From the NCBI RefSeq assembly GCF_001570605.1, contig NZ_BBXG01000021.1, positions 62,001 through 126,000 on the forward strand: 64,000 nt of DNA. The letters run 5' to 3'. The notes under the pieces were generated by a model. It did no database searches, was not told the origin of the DNA, and saw only the letters and a list, made by a program, of their open reading frames with translations. Each line of letters starts with the position of its first letter. Position 1 is the first letter of the stretch. The DNA comes from Herbidospora cretacea. GTDB taxonomy: Bacteria; Actinomycetota; Actinomycetes; Streptosporangiales; Streptosporangiaceae. Positions 20,504 through 62,889 of the stretch are shown in pieces. A program made the position numbers and the translations under genes.

Positions 20504-22150
20504 GTGAACGTGCAATACCTGTTCGTTATGAACGGTGAAAGGGGCGGACTCCCGCTCTCCCGTACGGCGATGTCCCGGCACCGTCTGGTCGTGAAGAGCC
20601 GGCTCCTGGAGCGCCGGGTGCCCTGGCCCCACCGGGTCGCCGTGCGGACCCCCGCCCCGCACCGCGGCACCGTGGCGCTGATCGGCTCCGGCGGCCCCGG
20701 CGACACCGGGGCGCTGCTCGCCCAGGTCCGCCAGGGCGGCTACGACGTGGTGCTCGTCGACACCCTTCTCCCCACCGGTCTCCCCATGGGCGACGCCCCG
20801 GCGATCGCGGACCGGCTGCGCGTTCCGGCCATGACGGCCGCGGCCGTCGCCGAGGCGATCGAGGGCTACTCCCGCCGGGTCCAGGGCGTCATCTGCTGGG
20901 AGCCGCGCTACCAGCAGGTCGCGGCTGCGGCGGCGCTGCGGCTCGGGCTGCCCTCCTTCGGGGAGACCGCCGCCATCGGCAGCGCCGACCCCGTCAGCAC
21001 CCAGGTCCTGCTCGCGGCGGCGGGCATGCGCACCCCCCGCTCGATCCTCGCCGTCTCGCCGGAGGAGGCCGACCGGGCCGCCCAGCTCATCGGCTGCCCG
21101 GTCCTGTTCGTCGCGCGCACCCCCGGGGGCAACCTGTCCCGGCGCCGGGTGGACGACCTCGCCGGCATCCCGGCCGGGTTCGCCGGAGCCCAGGCCGCCA
21201 CGGGCGACAGCGGGGCCGTTCTCGTCGAGGAGGTACCGATGGGTTCACCGGTCACGGTGGAGTGCTGGGTGCGCTCGGGCGCGCCGATCGGGGTGGCGGT
21301 GGTCCGCCGGTTCGGTCAGTACGAGATCGTCGACGCCGCCGACCCCCTGACCGACGACGCCGACGTCGTCTCGGTGATCGAGGCCGCCGTGGCGGCCGTG
21401 GGCGTGCACGACGGGCACTGCGGCGTCGAGCTGCTGCTGTCCGACGACGGGGCGATCGTGACCGGTCTGCGGGCCGGCCCGCCCGACGCGCTGATCAGCC
21501 ACGTCGTCGAACTCGTCACCGGGGTCAACATCCCGGCGGCGGCCGCGGCCATCAGCTGCGGCCAGGATCCCGCGCAGGACCGGCACCGCCAGCGCCGCGC
21601 CGCGCTCGTGACGCCCGTCGACATCCGCGCGCCCCGCCTGGAGGACCTCGACGACGACCTGCCCTACGCGGGCTGGATCGAGCGCTACGAGCCCGGCGGC
21701 CGGGCCGTCGTCACGGGCCGCAGCCCGCGCGAGTGCGCCCTGCGCGCCGCCCAGCTCCGGGCCGCCCACCTGCGCGCCGAGCACCTGTACATCCCGGCCG
21801 AGTGGCCGTTCCTGCCCCCGTCGTTCCAGCGCATCCGCGAACCGGAGCCCCAGCCGGTGACCGTCGCGGTGCCCGTGCCCGCGCCGACCCCGCTGCCCGT
21901 GCCCGCCCAGGTCGTTCTGGAGCCGCTGCCGCCCGCCCTCCCGGCCGCCGCGCCGCAGCTGATGATCGAACCGCTCGCCGTCCCGGCCCAAGAAGCCCCG
22001 GTGGAAGCCCCGGTGGACGCGGCAGCGGAGGTCGTGGCGGAGGTCGTGCCGGAGAACGTGCCGGAACCCGAACCGGAGGCGGCGGAGGAACAGCCGCCCG
22101 CGCCCGCGCGGCCGGTGATGCCGCCCAGCATGGCGAAGGCCCTGCAATGA
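20504..22150 (+). CDS. ATP-grasp-like protein with long Pro-rich tail
   Basis: 548 residues; GTG start with GGTGGAAG just upstream. Residues ~50-130 form a Rossmann-like preATP-grasp part (GTVALIGSGGPGDTGALLAQVR, GYDVVLVDTLLP). The middle follows the carboxylate-amine ligase plan: RVQGVICWEPRYQQVAAAAALRLGLP, AAGMRTPRSILAVSPEEA, VLVEEVPMGSPVTVECWV, and HDGHCGVELLLSDDGAIV...VVELVTGVNIPAAAAAISCG. The metal-binding E-x-N-x-R motif expected before LVTGVN is replaced by VTGLRAG, so catalysis is doubtful. The last ~110 residues are Pro/Val/Glu-rich and low in complexity. It overlaps the FemAB-like gene by ATGA. It may make or bind a peptide/amide; substrate unknown. Confidence 0.7.
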   Translation: MNVQYLFVMNGERGGLPLSRTAMSRHRLVVKSRLLERRVPWPHRVAVRTPAPHRGTVALIGSGGPGDTGALLAQVRQGGYDVVLVDTLLPTGLPMGDAPAIADRLRVPAMTAAAVAEAIEGYSRRVQGVICWEPRYQQVAAAAALRLGLPSFGETAAIGSADPVSTQVLLAAAGMRTPRSILAVSPEEADRAAQLIGCPVLFVARTPGGNLSRRRVDDLAGIPAGFAGAQAATGDSGAVLVEEVPMGSPVTVECWVRSGAPIGVAVVRRFGQYEIVDAADPLTDDADVVSVIEAAVAAVGVHDGHCGVELLLSDDGAIVTGLRAGPPDALISHVVELVTGVNIPAAAAAISCGQDPAQDRHRQRRAALVTPVDIRAPRLEDLDDDLPYAGWIERYEPGGRAVVTGRSPRECALRAAQLRAAHLRAEHLYIPAEWPFLPPSFQRIREPEPQPVTVAVPVPAPTPLPVPAQVVLEPLPPALPAAAPQLMIEPLAVPAQEAPVEAPVDAAAEVVAEVVPENVPEPEPEAAEEQPPAPARPVMPPSMAKALQ

Positions 22151-23379
22151 GGGCGGGGAACTCGGCGGCCGTCTCCTTCTACGAGGAGTCCCCGGTTCCG
22201 GTCAGACGCCCGGGAACCGAGGAGGTCCGGCTGACGATGGCCCCCCTCCGCTCGGCTCCGGCCCGGTGGGACGAGCTCGTCCCCCGTACGGCGGCGGGGC
22301 TGTTCAACGGCCGGGCCTGGCACCAGACGCACGCCGACCCGGACGCCGCCGCCTGGCACGGGGTGGCCCTCGGCTGGGTCGGCGGCGCGGGGCGGCCCTC
22401 GCTGCGCACGGTGGTGCCGATGAGCCACTACGACCGGGCCCCCACCCGCCCCATGCTCGACCCCTCCCGGCTGTTCGGCTCGATGCTGCGCGGCGGCCGG
22501 CTGCGCACGCCGGAGGCGTGGGGGAGGATCACCCTGATCGGGGCGACCGCCGGATACCGCACCGTCCCCGTCTGCCACCCCGACGACGAGCACCTGTGGG
22601 CGCGCGCGGTCGAGTACGCGATCCCCGACGACGGCGCGGCCGTCATCCTCTACCTCGACGGCCCCACGGCCGGCCGCCTGTCCCGCTACTTCCCGCGCGC
22701 GCCCCTCATCCTGACCCACGCGCGGACCACCATGCGGATCCAGGGGGCCACCTTCGAGGAGCACCTGGCGGCGCTGCCGCGCTCGCGGCGGACGCTGGCC
22801 CACCGCGAGGAGCGCGTCTTCGAGGACGGCGCCCGCGTGGTCAAGGTGCTGCCGCTGACGGCGGCCCTGCTGCCCGACCTGGCCCGGCTGCACCCGACGC
22901 CCAAGGAGGCCACCTCCGCCGAGCGGGAACTGCGCCGCTACCTCGCCTCACCGCTCGCGGCCTCGGCTCACGTGATCATGGCAACGCACAACGGCGTCCC
23001 GGTCGGCTACCGGCTGGTCTTCCAGCACGGCGACGGCCTGGTCGCCCACCGCATCACGGTCGACCCCCGGCGCACCGGCCACTTCGCCGAGCAGCCGGTG
23101 CTCCAGGCGCACGCCCCGGTCCGGATGTGCCTGGCCCGGCACCTCCAGGAGATCGACTTCGGCGTCGGCGGGTTCACCGACAAGCTGCGGCGCGGCGCCC
23201 GGCTGCTGCCGCTGTGGTCGCTGCTGCTGCGCCCGCCGGTCGGCTGGACGGCCCGGCACACCCGCGAGGTCAACCGCAGGCGCGCGGGCGAGCTCTTCGA
23301 CGCGTACGCGCAGGACATGGACGTCGACGACCTGGCCCTGCTCCGGCTCATCTCCCAGACCGGCATGTTCGCCGCCTAG
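22147..23379 (+). CDS. GNAT/FemAB-like acyltransferase
   Basis: 410 residues, translationally coupled to the ATP-grasp-like gene. An N-terminal part (RWDELVPRTAAGLFNGRAWHQ...VALGWVG) is followed by a second GNAT-like lobe from about residue 195 (TMRIQGATFEEHLAALPRSRRTLAHREERVF, HVIMATHNGVPVGYRLVFQ, VRMCLARHLQEIDFGVGGFTDKLRRGA). This two-lobe layout with the RR(T/K)-RE element is that of FemAB-like/Acetyltransf_6 proteins that move an acyl or aminoacyl group, often from CoA or tRNA. No membrane segment. Together with the preceding ligase-like protein it suggests amide-bond chemistry; the acceptor is unknown. Confidence 0.65.
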   Translation: MRAGNSAAVSFYEESPVPVRRPGTEEVRLTMAPLRSAPARWDELVPRTAAGLFNGRAWHQTHADPDAAAWHGVALGWVGGAGRPSLRTVVPMSHYDRAPTRPMLDPSRLFGSMLRGGRLRTPEAWGRITLIGATAGYRTVPVCHPDDEHLWARAVEYAIPDDGAAVILYLDGPTAGRLSRYFPRAPLILTHARTTMRIQGATFEEHLAALPRSRRTLAHREERVFEDGARVVKVLPLTAALLPDLARLHPTPKEATSAERELRRYLASPLAASAHVIMATHNGVPVGYRLVFQHGDGLVAHRITVDPRRTGHFAEQPVLQAHAPVRMCLARHLQEIDFGVGGFTDKLRRGARLLPLWSLLLRPPVGWTARHTREVNRRRAGELFDAYAQDMDVDDLALLRLISQTGMFAA

Positions 23380-23390
23380 AAGGAGCCCTC

Positions 23391-23633
23391 ATGACGCACT
23401 CCATCTTCGGCTCGTTCGAGGACGAGTACTCCGGCCGCCGTCCCTACGCGGACGCCGACTCCATCACCACCCTGGTCGACTCCTTCCGGCTGGCGGCGAC
23501 CGACGACGACGTCCGCGAGCTGTTCGACCAGCTCAACTACCATCTGGTCGCGGTGGAGAACCTGCTGACGTCCTGGTATGCCCGCAAGCATCCGGAGCGT
23601 CCGCTGCCGCTTCCGCGCCGACCAACGCGGTGA
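23391..23633 (+). CDS. 80-residue acidic-to-basic small protein, unknown
   Basis: AAGGAG lies 5 nt before ATG, so this is a real third gene of the ATP-grasp operon. MTHSIFGSFEDEYSGRRPY is followed by an acidic, helix-prone middle (DDDVRELFDQLNYHLVAVENLL) and a basic Pro/Arg end (HPERPLPLPRRPTR). No carrier-protein, zinc or membrane motif. Its 3' 101 nt overlap the convergent transposase-derived gene. It could be a partner subunit, or a modified peptide substrate of the two enzymes before it; neither is shown. Confidence 0.6.
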   Translation: MTHSIFGSFEDEYSGRRPYADADSITTLVDSFRLAATDDDVRELFDQLNYHLVAVENLLTSWYARKHPERPLPLPRRPTR

Positions 23634-26600
23634 TCGTGCGGGAGTCGGCGCCCGCGCAGACGGCCAGCACGACCGGGTCGCCGACCCCGCCCGCCCACGC
23701 CGCCCGCACCGCGAGGTCACGGGCGGCGGTGGCCAGCGCCTCGGTGTGAGCGGCCTCGGCGACGGCCCGCACGGCCGCCGCCACGTCGTCCAGCAGCGGA
23801 CGGCAGGCCCGCGCCAGGCCCGCCGTCCGCCGGTCCAGTTCGGCCCGGCTCGCCGCCAGGGCCGTCAGGGTCTCCTCACGTGTGGGGGAGGGCCGCAGCG
23901 CGCGGACCCGGGCCTGGGTGAGGTCCCCGGCCTCCGCGAGCAGCCCGACCACGTTGACCCCCGCGGCCAGCGCCGCCCGGACCTCGTCGTCGCGCCCCCG
24001 GCGCGCCTCGCCCAGCAGGACGGCGGCCCGCGCCACCTCGGCCCGCGCCTCCGGACCGGGCCGCCCGGACGGCGGCAGCAGCAGCAGGTCGGACCCGAGC
24101 CCCTCCAGGATCCGCCCCAGCGTGTACGGGCTGATCCGCGCCACCTCGCACATCGCCGTCACCGTGCGGTGCCCCTCGCGCCAGGCCCGGCGGACGGCGT
24201 CCCCGTGCTCGGCCCGCCGCATGCGGACCAGGGCGGCCGAGGCGGCGATCCGGGCCAGGAAGGCGGCCTCCTGGGCCCGGGCCCGCGCCCGCACCTCCCG
24301 CCGGACCGCCCGCACCCGGCCCTCGGGCAGCCCGCTGGCCCGCATCAGGGCGGCGAGCCCGGTCACCCCGGCGCGCACGCACGCGCGCACCGCCTCGATG
24401 TGCCCGGCGTCGATCGGCTCGGAGACGAAGGGCATGTCAGCTTCCGGCAGCCCGGTCCAGGCGGCCACCAGGGCGGCGTCCCTGGCCCCGGCGGCGTGCA
24501 GGACCCTGAGCGTCTCCCGCAGCGTCTCCCCGGCCGCGTCGCCGGACCTGCGGGCCGCCGCGAGGTCGGCCGCCGCGGCGCGCACGGCGTCCAGGAGCGG
24601 CCCGGACCGCTGCCCGTGGACGGCCAGCCGCCGCGACCGCCGGGCGTGTGTGCGGCACTGGTCGCCCATCACGGCCCGGTTGGCGCAGCCCGCCGGCCAG
24701 ACGCACAGGTAGGGCGTGCCGGCCGCGACGACCAGGACGGGCCGCCGGGCCAGGGCGGCGGCCAGTTCCTTGGACTTCCATCCGGCCTCGTCCGCGACGA
24801 CCAGGCAGAGCGGCCCGCCGGCCTCCTCCAGCAGCAGCTCGGCGAACGAGATCAGGGTCGCCGCGCGCACCCGGCCCCGGTAGCGGGCCCGCGGATACCA
24901 GGCGAACCGCGTCTCACCCGCGCGGTCGAGGGCGACCATGAGGCTCAGGTCTCCGCCCAGCCGCGCCTCGGCGACGAACCGGACGGCCGCGCCCGCGCCG
25001 GCGTGCGCCAGGTAGCGCGGCAGGGTCTCCTGCTCCCAGCGGCCGGGCTCGGCCGACGGGGTCTCCTCGGGCCACAGGCCCTCGTCCCGCAGCGAGGAGA
25101 CGGCGCGGGCCGCGTCGACGCCCAGCAGGGCGGTGAGGGTCCGCATGGTCAGCAGGGCGGGCGGGCCGGTCAGGACGAGGTCGCGCAGCCGGTCGCCGGG
25201 CACCGGCCGCCGCCGGGCGCGTTCCCGGGCGGCGGCGATCCGCACCTGGCGGTCGGCCGTCCCCACGGGGCCGCGCGGCGGGTGCTCCATCTCCAGCGAG
25301 GGCGGCTCGGGCCGGTGGAGTTCATGCCGCCGGTGGAAGTGGCGGCGGCACAGCGCCTGGACGGGGTCGTCCTCCGGGACCCGCCAGACGCGTTCGCCGC
25401 AGCCATCGGGCCAGGTGCAGTAGAAGGCGTCGCCCACGGTCGTGGCGGTGGCGTCGAGTTCCCGGGAGCGCCAGCCGGAGCCGTCGGTGACCACGAGGCA
25501 CTGCGGGGCGGTGAGGTCCTCGCGCAGCCGCCGGGTGAAGTCGGCCAGCGTCGCGGCGCGCATGCGGCCCTGGTAGCGGGCCTCCTCGTACCAGGCGAAG
25601 CGGCGTTCCTGCCCGGGGGTGACGGCCAGCAGCAGCGTGCGCCCGCCCGGCAGCGGCACCTCCTGGACGAACCGCACGTCCGCGCCGGCCCCCGCCTCGT
25701 CGTGGAAGAGCGGTAGCACGTCGTGACACCAGCGGCCCACAGCGGGTGACCCCGGCGGCACCACCGGCGGCAGCGGTCCGTCGGGCCACAGGTTCTGCGC
25801 GGACAGCAGGACTTCGGCCTCGCCGGTACTGACCGGATGACCGATAACCCCGCCGAGCCGCTCGGCGAGCCGGCGCATCGTCCACAACCCGGAGGGCGGC
25901 CCGCCCACGACGGCCCGGCGCAGGTCGGGCGCCGAGGCGGTCGCCCGCACCAGGGGCGGCCGGACCGACCGGGCCGCGCCCCCTTCGCGCACCCACAGCG
26001 TCAGCGGCAGCGCGGCCACCCCGCGCGCGCATTCCGGCAGGTCGAAGACGGGATGGCGGGCCGCGATGAGACAGGTGGGGCGGCCGGTCCCGGCCACCAG
26101 CCCGGCCGCGAAGTCGAGGAACGTCGCCGCGCTCGCGGGCCCGGAGTAGGCCCGGAACAGCAGCGGGCCGCCCGGGATCAGGGCGTAGGCCAGGTGGAAG
26201 CCGAAAGTCGCGGCGGGGTGGGCCGAACGCGGCAGCGGCGCGCCGATGTCCACCAGCCCGCCGCGCATCAGGAGCGCGTCCTGTTCCCGTGCTTTCTCTT
26301 TTATGTACGCGTAACGCTGTTTCCACAATCGGTCGGCGCCGTCCGGCCACGTGACGAGAGAGTGACGCGGCCATAAACCGAGTGAACGCAGCAGCCGGCC
26401 GATGCTGGTGAGCGTCAATGAGACGCCGTGGTCACGCGCGACGAGCTCGTTCACGAGTTCCCGCGTCCACAGCCGCCCTGTCAAGCCCGACCGCTCCGGC
26501 TCGGCCAGCAGGGCGGTCGCCAGGTCGTGGAGGCCGTCGGGGGAGAGCGCGGACGGCCGGCCCTGCAACGGACTGGCCTGCAACTTCTCCGGGGCCGAGC

Positions 26601-26745
26601 GGGCCTGGCGGAGCCATTCGTAGATCGACGACCGGGAGACGCCCATGTTCCGGCTCACCTGGGCGACGCCCTCACCCGCCTCGACGCGGGTCACGGCGGC
26701 GGTGCGCAGGGACGCGAGGAAGGCGCGTCCGTCCACATCCCGCAT
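23533..26745 (-). CDS. Large protein of three degenerate IS630-transposase modules with Cys/His knuckles
   Basis: 1070 residues. Module 1 (25-250): HTH GVAQVSRNMGVSRSSIYEWLRQ, the QGRPSALS linker, wHTH (RLWTRELVNELVARDHGVSLT...LGLWP) and an IS630 DDE-like part in which the acidic sites are gone (LVDIG; LIAARH). Module 2 (about 287-450) and module 3 (about 530-695) repeat wHTH plus DDE-like parts: GADVRFVQEV / GAAVRFVAEA, RFAWYEEARYQGRMRAATL / RFAWYPRARYRGRVRAATL, CLVVTDGSGWRSREL / CLVVADEAGWKSKEL. Each ends in a C-x5-C...C-x2-H knuckle (CTWPDGC; CVWPAGC). The remaining 370 residues are Ala/Arg-rich helices with HTH-like pieces. No terminal inverted repeats were seen, so it looks domesticated, probably DNA-binding. 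The start is uncertain (no clear Shine-Dalgarno). Confidence 0.75.
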   Translation of the reverse strand: MRDVDGRAFLASLRTAAVTRVEAGEGVAQVSRNMGVSRSSIYEWLRQARSAPEKLQASPLQGRPSALSPDGLHDLATALLAEPERSGLTGRLWTRELVNELVARDHGVSLTLTSIGRLLRSLGLWPRHSLVTWPDGADRLWKQRYAYIKEKAREQDALLMRGGLVDIGAPLPRSAHPAATFGFHLAYALIPGGPLLFRAYSGPASAATFLDFAAGLVAGTGRPTCLIAARHPVFDLPECARGVAALPLTLWVREGGAARSVRPPLVRATASAPDLRRAVVGGPPSGLWTMRRLAERLGGVIGHPVSTGEAEVLLSAQNLWPDGPLPPVVPPGSPAVGRWCHDVLPLFHDEAGAGADVRFVQEVPLPGGRTLLLAVTPGQERRFAWYEEARYQGRMRAATLADFTRRLREDLTAPQCLVVTDGSGWRSRELDATATTVGDAFYCTWPDGCGERVWRVPEDDPVQALCRRHFHRRHELHRPEPPSLEMEHPPRGPVGTADRQVRIAAARERARRRPVPGDRLRDLVLTGPPALLTMRTLTALLGVDAARAVSSLRDEGLWPEETPSAEPGRWEQETLPRYLAHAGAGAAVRFVAEARLGGDLSLMVALDRAGETRFAWYPRARYRGRVRAATLISFAELLLEEAGGPLCLVVADEAGWKSKELAAALARRPVLVVAAGTPYLCVWPAGCANRAVMGDQCRTHARRSRRLAVHGQRSGPLLDAVRAAAADLAAARRSGDAAGETLRETLRVLHAAGARDAALVAAWTGLPEADMPFVSEPIDAGHIEAVRACVRAGVTGLAALMRASGLPEGRVRAVRREVRARARAQEAAFLARIAASAALVRMRRAEHGDAVRRAWREGHRTVTAMCEVARISPYTLGRILEGLGSDLLLLPPSGRPGPEARAEVARAAVLLGEARRGRDDEVRAALAAGVNVVGLLAEAGDLTQARVRALRPSPTREETLTALAASRAELDRRTAGLARACRPLLDDVAAAVRAVAEAAHTEALATAARDLAVRAAWAGGVGDPVVLAVCAGADSRTITALVGAEAAADAPDACGHTRTSAGSPPRPDGS

Positions 26746-26759
26746 TCGATGCGGCCGAC

Positions 26760-26777
26760 TTGTCAAATCCTTGTCAA
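26760..26777. repeat. Direct repeat TTGTCAA-N4-TTGTCAA
   Basis: Two exact heptamers 11 bp apart, just upstream of the chosen start of the transposase-derived gene. Read on the minus strand each contains TTGACA, so they may be -35 elements or binding sites of the protein itself. Confidence 0.4.
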
Positions 26778-27045
26778 TGACCGAGTAATGATCCACGTGC
26801 GACCAAATAACACGAATTCTCCCCCTATGCAAACAATCTACTCGTCAAAGGAGTCAGGAAACCTGACACAAATAGGGGCCCTCCAGGAGAGGTGCCCTGA
26901 CCAGTGCCGTAGCGGCCGAGTATCTGCCGCCCCAAACCAGAATTTCGGTCCAGACGGGATGGGCATGAACTGAGAAAGGGTTACTGATTAGTCCCGTGAA
27001 CACGTTTGCTGGTGGTCAAGTTGTCCTGTCACGTCTATGCTCCGT

Positions 27046-27079
27046 TTGACGCACTTGATCAAGGCGTCGCTTGACGCAC
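27046..27079. promoter_or_regulatory. Operator-like repeats before the XRE-TPR gene
   Basis: TTGACGCAC occurs at 27046-27054 and 27071-27079. Between them CTTGATCAAG is a perfect palindrome flanked by GACGC and GCGTC, making an almost perfect inverted repeat across 27048-27068 (one extra base). Position 20-50 nt before the regulator start fits autoregulation. Confidence 0.5.
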
Positions 27080-27099
27080 CGTGTTAGGCGAGGAGCACA

Positions 27100-28464
27100 G
27101 TGCCCGAGAAGATCGCCCAACGTGTTCGAGCCGCTCGCCTGCAGAGAGGGTTGTTGCCATTCCAAGTGACGTCCGAACTGGACGCCGACTCGATCGAACG
27201 GATTGAAAGCGGAGACCTCGAACCCACCGCGGGCATGATCAGGATCATCGCGCGAGGACTCCACTGCTCCCCCCTGTGGCTGACCGACGGACTCGACCCG
27301 CACATGATCGCGGGACTTCGGGCCGAAGCCGCCAAGGCGGGCGCCGCCCTGGCGGAAGGGCGGTTCTCCGAGGCGCGGGACCGCTACGCGACGCTGCTCC
27401 GGCAGCCGCCGCTCGGCATGGTCCCCGACCTCTGGCGGCAGGCCGAGCTCGGCCAGGCCCACGCGGCCGAACGCGAAGGCGACCTCCCTCAGGTGATCAC
27501 CAGGGTGACCCGCCTCCTCGACGCCCATCTCGACGAGCCCGCCGAGAGGGTGGCCCGGGCGAGCGGGCACTGGACGCAGTTCGTCGACTACCGCGTCCGG
27601 CTGGCCACCGTGCTGTGCCGGAGCCACCTCGAAGCGGGTGACATTTCGGCCAGCGTGGCCGTCGGCGAGCGCGCGCTCGACCGTGAGATCGGCGCGGCCG
27701 GCTGGACTTCGAGCGTCATAGAGCTCGGTTGCGCCCTGATTTCGACCTACGGAGAGCAGGTCGACCTCGGTTCTCACCCCGAAGAGGCCGGACATGGTTC
27801 GCATCTGCGATTGCATCTGCTGCTGAGCGAGCTGACGAGCGCCGCGATAGAGCTCGGAGAGCCCCGCGGCCGAATTGCGGTCGCCTGGCAGAACGGGATC
27901 ACGGCCGCGAGATCGAAAATGTCGTCCACCGCGAGAGGGCTTTTCGAGCAGGCGCTGTCCCTCTACGCGGCCGGCTACCACGATCCCCACGGCCTGGCGC
28001 GGCTCCGGGCGAGCATGGCCGGGGAGATGGTCACGGCCGACCCCGAGGCGGTCGAGGAGATCCATCCGCTCCTCATGGGGGCCCAGATCGAGCTGGCCGA
28101 CGCGGCGGCCGGGATCGTCGACCGGGGCCGCTGCACCCTCGCGCTGGCCCGCGCCGACGTCCTCAGAGGCGATCACCGCCAGGCCGTCGACCGGGCCAAC
28201 GAGGTCGTCAAAGCCGTCGGCGAGACGGCCGCGCTGCTGGTCGTCCACGCCTCGGAGGTCATCGCCGAGGCACACCTGCGGCTCGGCGAGGCCTGGGAGG
28301 CCGAACAGGCCCTCGTGGCCGCCGCCGAGCGCTGGGAGACGATGACCTCCCGCGAACGCGCCTCGGCGATGTGGATGCGGGTCGCCGACCTCAGATCGCG
28401 GGGCGGCGACCTGGAAGGCGGCCGAGCGGCCCTGGACCGGGCGCTCGCCGTGATCGGGGTCTGA
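27100..28464 (+). CDS. XRE-type HTH regulator with TPR-like helical C-terminus
   Basis: 454 residues; GTG 5 nt after AGGAG. N-terminal helix-turn-helix, residues 3-60 (IAQRVRAARLQRGLLPFQVTSELDADSIERIESGDLEPTAGMIRIIARGLHC), then about 380 residues of alpha-helical repeats resembling TPRs (AALAEGRFSEARDRYATLLRQ, SHLEAGDISASVAVGERALD, ARADVLRGDHRQAVDRANEVVK, GGDLEGGRAALDRALAVI). This layout matches actinobacterial regulators that bind a peptide or protein through the TPRs. It is divergent from the transposase-derived gene and carries its own operator-like site. The last 74 nt overlap the convergent gene. Confidence 0.85.
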   Translation: MPEKIAQRVRAARLQRGLLPFQVTSELDADSIERIESGDLEPTAGMIRIIARGLHCSPLWLTDGLDPHMIAGLRAEAAKAGAALAEGRFSEARDRYATLLRQPPLGMVPDLWRQAELGQAHAAEREGDLPQVITRVTRLLDAHLDEPAERVARASGHWTQFVDYRVRLATVLCRSHLEAGDISASVAVGERALDREIGAAGWTSSVIELGCALISTYGEQVDLGSHPEEAGHGSHLRLHLLLSELTSAAIELGEPRGRIAVAWQNGITAARSKMSSTARGLFEQALSLYAAGYHDPHGLARLRASMAGEMVTADPEAVEEIHPLLMGAQIELADAAAGIVDRGRCTLALARADVLRGDHRQAVDRANEVVKAVGETAALLVVHASEVIAEAHLRLGEAWEAEQALVAAAERWETMTSRERASAMWMRVADLRSRGGDLEGGRAALDRALAVIGV

Positions 28465-29587
28465 GCCCGCGCAGCAGGTCGGCGGGCTCCCGTCCCAGGT
28501 GCCGCAGCACGCAGCACAGGTGCGGATAGACGGCCTCGGCGCGCGGATAGCGGTCGGTGGGCGCGGCGCGCTCGTGCGCCTCGAAGGCGGCGATCAGCGC
28601 CTCGGGATAGTCGGCCAGGTAGACGCCCGAGATGCGCGGCGCGAACATCGACAGCTCCCGGTCGAGCTGCCAGTAGTAGGACACCAGGTCGGTGAGCGGC
28701 TCACACGCCTTGACCAGGTCGTCGTGGTTGTCGAAGCGGGGCACCGGATGGTCGTGGTCGCAGAAGGGCAGGTCGTCCTCGGACGCCACCTCCTCCGGCT
28801 CTCCGGGGTCGAGGGGCACGTCGGGGAACTCGATCTCGCTCTCGCCGCCGGTCTCCAGCAGGATCCGGCGGGCCGTGGCCAGCGGGGGATAGCCGAGGGT
28901 GAGGCCGCGCAGGGCCCTCGGCAGCTCGGCGAACGCGTCCATGCCCGCGAAGGTGTGGTTGGCGGGGGATTCCTTGCGATGGGACAGCAGCGCCCAGGCG
29001 GCCGTCTCAGCGGCTTCTGGGGGCAGCGCGTCGCGGTAGCAGGCGACGAGCGCCTCCAGCTCGAACAGCTCTCCGTACGTCTCCTCGCGGCCCGCCGTGA
29101 TGTGCAGGGCGTTGCCGTCGACGAGCTCGCGGTGGTATTCCAGGCCCACTCTGCGGGCGCGGGTGCACCAGGCCTGCGCCTCGTCGAGCGGAAGGGTGAA
29201 TCGGCCGAACGGCTTGCGCCCGGAAAGGAGGGCGCCGGCGATCCAGCGTTCACTCCAGCCGGGTCCGTCGTAGGGGGAGGGATCGGCGAGATCTCGCAGT
29301 AGCCCTTGAGAAAGGATCTCATTCCACGGGCTCACTAGAGAACTTCTGAATCCATTCATGGCCGGCCCGGTGAAATCCCAGACCCGGTATCCGTGCCACA
29401 CGGCCAGTATCCGCGTCCAGGCGCCGAACTCGCTTTCCGCGCGTTGTCCGTCGTATAGGCCGTGCAATGGGTTGCCGAAGTCGTCCTGGAAGGGTCCGGG
29501 TTGGCACCGTCCTACGGGGCTCACCGGCGTTCGATCATCATATAGGGGCGTCCAGCCGCGCACGGGGCCGGGCCTCCTTTCCGCCAT
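28391..29587 (-). CDS. Hypothetical protein, 398 residues, family not recognised
   Basis: Soluble and acidic, with no signal peptide or membrane helix. Recognisable only as Trp/Tyr-rich at the N-terminus (VRGWTPLYDDRTP, AWTRILAVWHGYRVWDFTG), helical in the middle (LFELEALVACYRDALPPEAAETAAWALL) and acidic near 270-300 (PDVPLDPGEPEEVASEDDLPFCDHDHP). The Arg/Pro-rich last 25 residues lie over the 3' end of the XRE-TPR gene and look like a read-through extension. The start is uncertain; a GTG nine codons upstream is possible. It faces the XRE-TPR regulator, so the two may be functionally linked, but nothing proves it. Confidence 0.6.
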   Translation of the reverse strand: MAERRPGPVRGWTPLYDDRTPVSPVGRCQPGPFQDDFGNPLHGLYDGQRAESEFGAWTRILAVWHGYRVWDFTGPAMNGFRSSLVSPWNEILSQGLLRDLADPSPYDGPGWSERWIAGALLSGRKPFGRFTLPLDEAQAWCTRARRVGLEYHRELVDGNALHITAGREETYGELFELEALVACYRDALPPEAAETAAWALLSHRKESPANHTFAGMDAFAELPRALRGLTLGYPPLATARRILLETGGESEIEFPDVPLDPGEPEEVASEDDLPFCDHDHPVPRFDNHDDLVKACEPLTDLVSYYWQLDRELSMFAPRISGVYLADYPEALIAAFEAHERAAPTDRYPRAEAVYPHLCCVLRHLGREPADLLRGLRPRSRRAPGPGPLGRLPGRRPAI

Positions 29588-29799
29588 AGGGATTGTCAGG
29601 CTCCCCACCGGCACCTTCAGAAGCGCGCCGAAACCGAAAAGAATTTTGCCTGATCAACGATCGGTCGCGCAATGCACCAAATTAACCATGATGGGCAAAT
29701 TGCGCTGCACGTGCATCCTCACGTGCCTCCGAAAAATACTTTCCCTTTTCGTGCGGTCCGAAATAGGCGGACGACGGCGGATCCGCGGGAGGGCGGCGA

Positions 29800-61953: not shown

Positions 61954-62889
61954 TTACTTCGAGGAGACCCCGACGCCCAGGTCGAACTCGCGGTAGACCC
62001 GCGCCCAGAAGCCGTCGCGCAGCCACACGCGGGCCTCGGGGTAGGGGCGCAGCGAGTGGCCCAGCTCCTTCTCCGCCTCGATCAGCAGCTCGGTGTCGAT
62101 GACCGTCGGCAGCAGCGGGCCCGGGAGCAGGTCGCGGATGTTGTCGCGGCCTCGCGTGAGGATCCACTTCTGCGCCACGTGCTCGCCGACCTCCTCCACC
62201 CTCGGGCGGCTGGGCCCGAGTTTGGGCTGTCCCGCCTGCTTCTGCGGGGGAGCGGCGGGTTTCGCGGTCCGCCCCGCGAAGACCTGGGCCGGTGAGGGCG
62301 GCGGGGTGACCGCCACCGGGATGGGAGCACGCGTGAAAAAGGGCCTCAGGGCGTCAGCGGTGATGATCTCAACGGTGTCGGACTCCCAGACCAGCCGTTC
62401 GGCCTGGTTGGTGCCGAAAGGCGGTTCGACCCCCCACAGGTGCACCCGGACGCCGTAGGCCTGGGCGGCCTCCACCGCAGGGACCATGTCCTCGTCACCG
62501 GCGATCAAGATGGTGTCGCTGACGGCATGGTGCCGGGCCAGCGCCTCCAGGTCGCTCCGTATCTGCGCGTCGACGCCCTTCTGCTGGCCGCGCGCGTTCA
62601 GGTTGCCAAGCCGAACCTTCACATAGTGGAGCTGGGCGATCACCCGCTGGTCGACCGTGGGAACCCGGTCGCGGGCGGCGTCGTACCAATAGACACGCAG
62701 GAGTTCGCCCTGGTGGCGCTCCATCGCGTGTTTCTGCAGGAATTGGATCAGCTCGTCGGCCGCGACCCGATATTCCTTGCGTTCCTTCGCGCCCAGCAAA
62801 ACCTCGCCGGCGGCTGCGTACAGATAACCGACGTCGACGAGAACCGCATATTTTGCCATGCTGTGCAGTGCGAGGTCCGGGATGGCCAT
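61954..62889 (-). CDS. NYN-domain (PIN-like) putative RNase
   Basis: 311 residues; GGAGGA 4 nt before ATG. NYN domain of the LabA/MARF1 type: YAVLVDVGYLYAAAGEV (first Asp, D19), GVDAQIRSDLEALARHHAVSDTILIAGDEDMVPAVEAAQAYGVRVHLWGVEPP (acidic cluster). An internal Pro-rich linker (about 200-235) joins a ~75-residue C-terminal helical domain (EVGEHVAQKWILTRGRDNIRDLLPGPLLPTVIDTELLIEAEKELG). NYN proteins are Mg2+-dependent RNases; its RNA target is unknown. The TTGACA/TAATGC element upstream points the other way. Confidence 0.85.
   Translation of the reverse strand: MAIPDLALHSMAKYAVLVDVGYLYAAAGEVLLGAKERKEYRVAADELIQFLQKHAMERHQGELLRVYWYDAARDRVPTVDQRVIAQLHYVKVRLGNLNARGQQKGVDAQIRSDLEALARHHAVSDTILIAGDEDMVPAVEAAQAYGVRVHLWGVEPPFGTNQAERLVWESDTVEIITADALRPFFTRAPIPVAVTPPPSPAQVFAGRTAKPAAPPQKQAGQPKLGPSRPRVEEVGEHVAQKWILTRGRDNIRDLLPGPLLPTVIDTELLIEAEKELGHSLRPYPEARVWLRDGFWARVYREFDLGVGVSSK

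Follow-up and report, generated by a model that had tools for sequence, protein, structure and literature searches.

A putatively domesticated IS630-derived mosaic protein at a conserved locus in Herbidospora

Introduction

Eukaryotes provide well-documented cases of DNA-binding proteins that derive from transposases, CENP-B being an example of domestication from the pogo/IS630-Tc1-mariner elements. In bacteria, the TldR proteins descend from TnpB. Here we describe a gene of the soil actinobacterium Herbidospora cretacea whose product, P0001, we consider to be probably a domesticated, catalytically dead descendant of an IS630 transposase. It would serve the host by binding DNA in a multivalent manner and would most likely regulate transcription at its own locus. 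The gene lies in a window of 64,000 nt (GCF_001570605.1, NZ_BBXG01000021.1, forward-strand positions 62,001 to 126,000), which is the whole stretch of DNA that was analysed and of which a preliminary description, made from the letters alone, was available.

With the IS630 family transposases (IS630-Tc1-mariner), P0001 shares the helix-turn-helix (HTH), the GRP linker, the winged helix and a core that is collinear up to the second catalytic strand. It differs from them in having three modules, lost catalytic residues, a deleted first-strand loop and a fixed single copy, and in its modules 2 and 3 the third acidic region is replaced by a zinc-knuckle-like motif. Eukaryotic proteins domesticated from IS630-Tc1-mariner/pogo elements, as outlined in PMC7386202, are similar in that a transposase of that superfamily was made a host protein, whereas P0001 is bacterial and has several modules, knuckles and a repeat tail; the homology that we claim is at the superfamily level only. 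TldR proteins, presented in PMC13418256 as RNA-guided bacterial transcription factors, resemble our proposal in being regulators recruited from a transposon nuclease and differ in their RNA-guided TnpB descent, as opposed to the DDE transposase descent of P0001. Ner/SfsB and antitoxin-derived regulators (PMC8987985) are likewise bacterial transcription factors that were recruited from HTH proteins of mobile elements, but these are described there as small regulators of phage or toxin-antitoxin origin rather than as transposase mosaics, and a term search of the main text of that article returned no mention of IS630, DDE or mariner. An abstract-level literature search, with many subscription papers outside its scope, found no account of a domesticated bacterial IS630-superfamily DDE transposase. 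The kind of protein, a domesticated transposase acting as a DNA-binding protein, is known, while the bacterial IS630 variant looks new.

Results

Three modules of IS630 descent

P0001 is encoded by one unbroken open frame (Table 1), and its ATG is common to all seven Herbidospora genomes. The gene has a guanine-cytosine (GC) content of 77%, distributed as 0.79/0.59/0.93 over codon positions 1/2/3, and this coding pattern resembles that of three genes nearby, namely a divergent gene for a protein with XRE-like HTH and TPR-like parts (the XRE/TPR gene), a family-less gene that we call the partner, and an MFS gene.

The N-terminal part of P0001 (residues ~9-126) contains the HTH, the GRP linker and the winged helix of IS630. 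Pfam HTH_28, HTH_Tnp_1 and HTH_Tnp_IS630 exceed their cut-offs there; the NCBIfam IS630 model matches with an expectation value (E) of 1.7e-20, yet its 73.7 bits are below the 100-bit cut-off. In addition, 23 plasmid records match P0001; the ten that are listed carry an IS630 transposase annotation and align inside residues 1-253. Modules 2 and 3 matched nothing in the family libraries and, therefore, we used profile-profile alignment, in which module 1 (E 7e-17), module 2 (E 2e-9) and module 3 (E 4e-9) all matched seven IS630 transposases. For these queries, a reversed IS630 profile, a wrong-frame translation and three unrelated proteins of the window served as controls and gave E of at least 0.068, three more window proteins gave at least 0.038 for the module queries, and the best control across all queries of the first profile comparison reached 0.013. 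The control proteins were the XRE/TPR, partner, ATP-grasp, GNAT, MFS and lyase proteins of the window.

In the alignments, modules 1-3 are collinear with the IS630 transposases from the winged helix through the second catalytic strand. The loop between the first strands (~24 residues) is deleted in modules 2 and 3 as well as in relatives from the genera g5, g88 and g4, and is about half deleted in module 1; this common deletion fits a shared origin and is no proof of one. The secondary structure predicted for modules 2 and 3 at low confidence, helix-beta-beta-beta-helix-beta, is the order expected of an RNase H-like core. Among Protein Data Bank (PDB) sequences, a profile of module 1 together with IS630 found Sleeping Beauty (E 4e-9), a match for which the true IS630 rows in the profile may by themselves account. 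The same search with modules 2-3 returned nothing beyond weak matches of the knuckle to Sp1 zinc fingers (E 0.07), and with P0001 no significant match (best E 0.61). Overall, the profile comparisons support IS630 descent of all three modules.

To describe the catalytic site, an alignment of 18 module copies (three modules from six sequences) and eight IS630 rows was used. All eight IS630 rows have D at both the first (D1) and the second (D2) catalytic column. The module copies have G, Q or A at D1 and A, P, T, S or G at D2, with none of the 18 acidic at either column, and the third catalytic region is missing from the modules. Judged by these columns, modules 1-3 are catalytically dead.

Knuckles and module duplication

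Modules 2 and 3 end in Cys3His knuckles with the spacings C443-x5-C449...C466-x2-H469 and C681-x5-C687...C697-x2-H700. These sit in place of the lost RNase H end, where the third acidic residue of a transposase would be. The eight ligands are invariant in 6/6 rows of one alignment, the divergent genus included, and likewise in those rows of a second alignment that reach the knuckles (six of seven). The knuckles are putative zinc-binding sites.

Modules 2 and 3 are 44% identical (hhalign E 8e-53) and form one group in the module tree (100/99), while module 1 is found with true IS630 and other degenerate modules. The tree is midpoint-rooted and has several long branches, so that the exact place of module 1 is unsure. 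From this grouping, modules 2 and 3 are the product of one duplication, and module 1, the only one of the three with an HTH, was either captured separately or copied at an earlier time.

These results modify the preliminary description, which had seen three degenerate IS630 modules in tandem triplication. Its assignment of an IS630 HTH, GRP linker and winged helix to module 1 agrees with the NCBIfam and Pfam matches, and the IS630 similarity that it saw in all three modules was recovered by profile comparison, including modules 2 and 3, for which a lack of similarity had been named as the outcome that would speak against it. The loss of acidic residues, noted for module 1, extends to all three modules. 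That modules 2 and 3 repeat each other was read correctly, but a simple tandem triplication is not supported by the tree, in which module 1 lies outside the group of modules 2 and 3, nor by the restriction of the HTH to module 1; a tandem array of three equal copies does not describe the modules. The C-x5-C...C-x2-H ends were also seen correctly, and they are replacements of the lost RNase H end rather than insertions.

Table 1 Features of the P0001 locus in the window
Feature	Position	Strand	Remark
Coding sequence of P0001, 1070 aa	23536..26745	-	One unbroken open frame; stop codon 23533-23535; ATG 26743-26745
IS630-type HTH and GRP linker, residues 9-65	26551..26721	-	HTH_28, HTH_Tnp_1, HTH_Tnp_IS630 above cut-off
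Module 1, residues 88-262	25960..26484	-	Winged helix and truncated, predicted catalytically dead RNase H-like core; IS630 profile match
Module 2, residues 285-475	25321..25893	-	Winged helix, predicted dead RNase H-like core, Cx5C...Cx2H knuckle
Knuckle of module 2, C443/C449/C466/H469	25339..25419	-	Ligands invariant in all rows reaching the knuckle
Module 3, residues 530-706	24628..25158	-	Duplicate of module 2
Knuckle of module 3, C681/C687/C697/H700	24646..24705	-	Ligands invariant
Tail, residues 711-1050	23596..24615	-	Helix and HTH-like repeats: three by sequence, five helix groups in low-confidence model
Divergent neighbour, XRE-like HTH and TPR-like protein	27100..28464	+	HTH_3 E 0.013, TPR matches, all below cut-off; syntenic in G125
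Partner gene, family-less	28391..29614	-	Near mosaic protein in five genera
35-base run identical in 7/7 Herbidospora genomes, just upstream of the P0001 gene	26785..26819	-	Possible promoter/operator
Invariant runs of 41, 35 and 43 bases, reaching from upstream into the XRE/TPR start	26983..27116	.	7/7 Herbidospora genomes

A single-copy gene at a fixed locus

The P0001 gene is present once in its own genome and in all six other Herbidospora genomes, unbroken in four and broken at contig ends in two. The breaks within the gene (contig ends G003:C12/C29 and G005:C23/C25) perhaps result from its high GC content. Modules 2-3 and the tail were found in 8 of 341 genomes of the family, seven of them Herbidospora and the eighth, G125, from another genus. 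The G125 protein has 1195 residues, is 47-52% identical and contains an extra CxxxxC...CxxC stretch; its locus keeps the divergent XRE/TPR gene and the partner, a synteny shared with Herbidospora. The genome searches scored part of the first-look candidates (for example three per genome in the 341-genome search, at most nine for the partner and seven for the tail) and, therefore, absences from these searches are not proven. At the order level, a whole-protein profile found 55 of 345 genomes, the IS630 part being responsible for nearly all of them, and a class-level search with L115, the relative from genus g88, found 4 of 296, with partial or IS630-like matches. Taken together, the distribution indicates that the gene is inherited vertically, with synteny, at one locus.

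The ratio of nonsynonymous to synonymous substitution rates (dN/dS) of the gene is 0.31 (10 pairs), with lower values in the HTH and linker (0.115) and in module 1 (0.17), which indicates that the gene is under purifying selection. We considered whether the gene is a decaying relic, that is, an IS630 fossil left open by chance in a high-GC genome. The lost catalytic residues and an evolution faster than that of three neighbours agree with such decay, and high GC favours spurious frames, as in the antisense frame of 712 aa that is also present here. Yet the frame is intact in 4/4 congeners without a contig-end cut and 1195 residues long in another genus at 47-52% identity, and the dN/dS, the eight invariant knuckle ligands and the synteny add to this, making a relic very improbable.

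A mobile element, or the cargo of one, is even harder to reconcile with the locus and in our view almost certainly wrong. Module 1 does align with annotated IS630 transposases, and the congener G006 has 31 IS630-family matches. P0001, however, has a dead catalytic site and a single-copy gene at the same locus across congeners, with no copies at other sites with target duplications. No bracketing inverted repeat was found among the longest 25 of 598 pairs in 23300-27150, and its own genome has no IS630 match above the cut-off, the P0001 gene being the best of seven below it. Searches of phages gave no match to P0001, those of viral contigs none that was confirmed, and no plasmid record covers most of the protein.

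The statement in the preliminary description that this is not a mobile element thus holds on all these counts. The proposed search for orthologues with conserved synteny found the gene in the six other Herbidospora genomes and G125 beside the same neighbours, and the close copies elsewhere that were to speak for an active element are lacking in its own genome. As for its wording of a domesticated DNA-binding protein, the domestication is backed by the dead site, the single copy, the synteny and the purifying selection, and the DNA binding is an inference.

A tail of probable repeats

The tail was analysed with a repeat model built from ten units of other genera, for which the highest score among 501 decoys, shuffled or reversed, was 6.0 bits. 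Three units of the P0001 tail exceed this value (14.1, 8.2 and 6.6 bits) and a fourth scores -0.4. In the low-confidence AlphaFold2 model, the tail has five helix groups, each with a pair of short helices; in four of the groups the first helix is long. The repeat units of the relatives L115 and G207 (genus g4) match Pfam HTH models, mostly below cut-off. The tail therefore looks like up to five helix and HTH repeats, three of them supported by sequence; the helical tail of the preliminary description keeps its helices and gains a probable repeat structure.

Each chain might thus have as many as nine DNA-binding-like units, if the HTH, the three winged helices and at most five tail units are counted together. 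So many units would also suit an architectural, nucleoid-type DNA bridger that occupies many sites instead of acting as a local regulator. We think this rather unlikely, given that the protein is conserved near one gene set in several genera.

Different heads beside a shared partner

The partner belongs to no known family (best E 0.43 in the PDB sequence search). It is found patchily, in 24 of 200 genomes of the family, and is 29-58% identical between genera. We inspected the flanks of all 24 and found a mosaic protein beside the partner or one gene away in 17. In the seven Herbidospora genomes and G125, the XRE/TPR gene stands between the two. Two genomes of genus g5 have a protein of 504-505 aa beside the partner, with one dead IS630 module and a tail. 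Genus g88 (two genomes) has a 669-aa protein with one dead module and a four-repeat tail, of which the second genome shows a 240-aa end on a contig. In five genomes of genus g28, the neighbour carries CxxxxC...CxxH-type knuckles (seven matches in 5/5) and a tail, without an IS630 part. Near the g28 locus there are also MFS, ATP-grasp and chorismate-lyase-like genes, as in the window, and an MFS gene lies near the g5 and g88 loci as well.

From end to end, the tail of g5 aligns with that of g28 at 36-38%. In the profile comparison, the Herbidospora/G125 tail matches them with E of 7e-9 and 2e-6, respectively (8.7e-8 and 5e-6 in the reverse direction), where reversed and TPR controls for this query gave at least 0.11; the worst control of the comparison, under another query, was the reversed g28 tail against itself (E 0.0013). 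Genera g88 and g4 have tails that match one another (E 4e-14). The g88 tail is unmatched by that of Herbidospora/G125, and g88 is therefore linked to the family by its position and IS630 module, not by its tail.

At this site the head is thus a single dead IS630 module, a set of three such modules with knuckles, or a series of seven zinc knuckles. We tentatively raise the possibility, which we hold to be less probable than its opposite, that this is a head-swapping site, where the repeat tail and the partner are kept and the N-terminal DNA-recognition heads are exchanged or multiplied between genera. If this is true, a captured transposase would have supplied a bacterial lineage with interchangeable parts for reading DNA, in parallel with the fast-evolving multi-finger DNA-binding proteins of animals. 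On our main reading, the transposase was captured, killed, multiplied, given zinc-knuckle-like ends and joined to a repeat array, and the assortments differ by genus at one locus. Both the recruitment as a regulator and the head exchange are thus testable in culturable actinomycetes.

The varying heads could alternatively reflect an anti-mobile-element factor, in which the dead transposase would bind IS630-type inverted repeats and block the elements, the changing heads following the invaders. The constraint is strongest on the IS630-derived HTH and module 1, the head modules vary between genera at one locus, and the H. cretacea genome has no IS630 match above the cut-off, all as this idea would have it. 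The congeners G002 and G006, however, carry both the gene and IS630 matches above the cut-off, the HTH is conserved within the genus and not diversifying, and the PADLOC matches are weak and at the HTH level (mad1 E 3e-4, DrmC E 0.009). We consider such a role quite improbable. Identity with a defence system was dismissed in view of these weak matches.

Two mosaic proteins deserve separate mention. The one at L084:9137-10708 has a repeat tail and a run of seven CxxxxC...CxxH-type knuckles, with a match to the Pfam WRKY19 zinc finger below cut-off. The other, at L086:9458-11797 (G207, genus g4), has 779 aa with an IS630 HTH, a winged helix, a degenerate core and a repeat tail, and lies at a different locus.

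A proposed regulator of its own locus

The intergenic region between the P0001 gene and the divergent XRE/TPR gene contains runs that are invariant in the genus (Table 1). These are probably regulatory and we treat them as candidate operators only. A 121-base stretch around the run at 26785-26819 has no other strong match in its own genome; read in frame upstream of the ATG, this run has AT-ending codons.

The other assortments of such pieces that relatives have at this site point to the recruitment of a mobile element as a regulator. In the mechanism that we propose, P0001 would hold several sites simultaneously through its several DNA-binding units, its dead RNase H cores would act as a scaffold or dimer interface, and its knuckles would bind zinc. 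The operator would lie within the conserved region shared by the two divergent genes; from this position, we propose that P0001 represses its own gene and adjusts its neighbours (XRE/TPR, partner, ATP-grasp, GNAT and MFS).

Several observations weigh against P0001 as a domesticated DNA-binding regulator. The tail has a high dN/dS of 0.49, and three neighbours have 0.15-0.27, so that the P0001 gene evolves faster than they do. An Asp lies one residue past the D2 column in 12/12 copies of modules 2 and 3, so that D2 may have been retained, shifted by one position. The AlphaFold2 model of full-length P0001 is of low quality (predicted local distance difference test, pLDDT, 47; predicted template modelling score, pTM, 0.28), and the model of module 2 (pLDDT 59, pTM 0.62) gave no PDB match at E <= 0.001 in Foldseek. 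Its top rows, HIV reverse transcriptase chains with TM-scores near 0.2, were dismissed as evidence. Orthologous tails vary in their repeat scores, with just two units each exceeding 6.0 bits at L034 and in G125. The Herbidospora/G125 tail does not rise above background against those of g88 (L115, E 0.0085) and g4 (G207, E 0.0018), and a hidden Markov model search with the g5/g28 tail found 13 of 338 genomes of the family, none of them Herbidospora. In 7 of the 24 partner genomes, no neighbour matches the reference proteins; in two of these seven, G231 and G340, the tail is weakly matched at another place in the genome. Finally, the longest invariant intergenic runs are on the XRE/TPR side and not on the P0001 side. 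Because of this position and the background-level score of the g88 tail, we hold both the domestication and the head exchange to be slightly less probable than we otherwise would. We still favour P0001 as a domesticated regulator, in view of its dead site, fixed locus and selection.

Other observations

Two single-module IS630-like proteins were noted elsewhere. One, of 262 aa at L066:1489-2274 (genus g82), has lost the first catalytic residue and is possibly another domestication. The other, L131 (G521, from another family of the class), is shortened and has D at both columns checked, with the third region unclear.

Next to the P0001 gene, genes for an ATP-grasp-like protein and a GNAT protein (PF13480) and an 80-aa frame stand in a row at 20504-23633, near the Rv2949c-like lyase and MFS genes. 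This might be a small biosynthetic locus.

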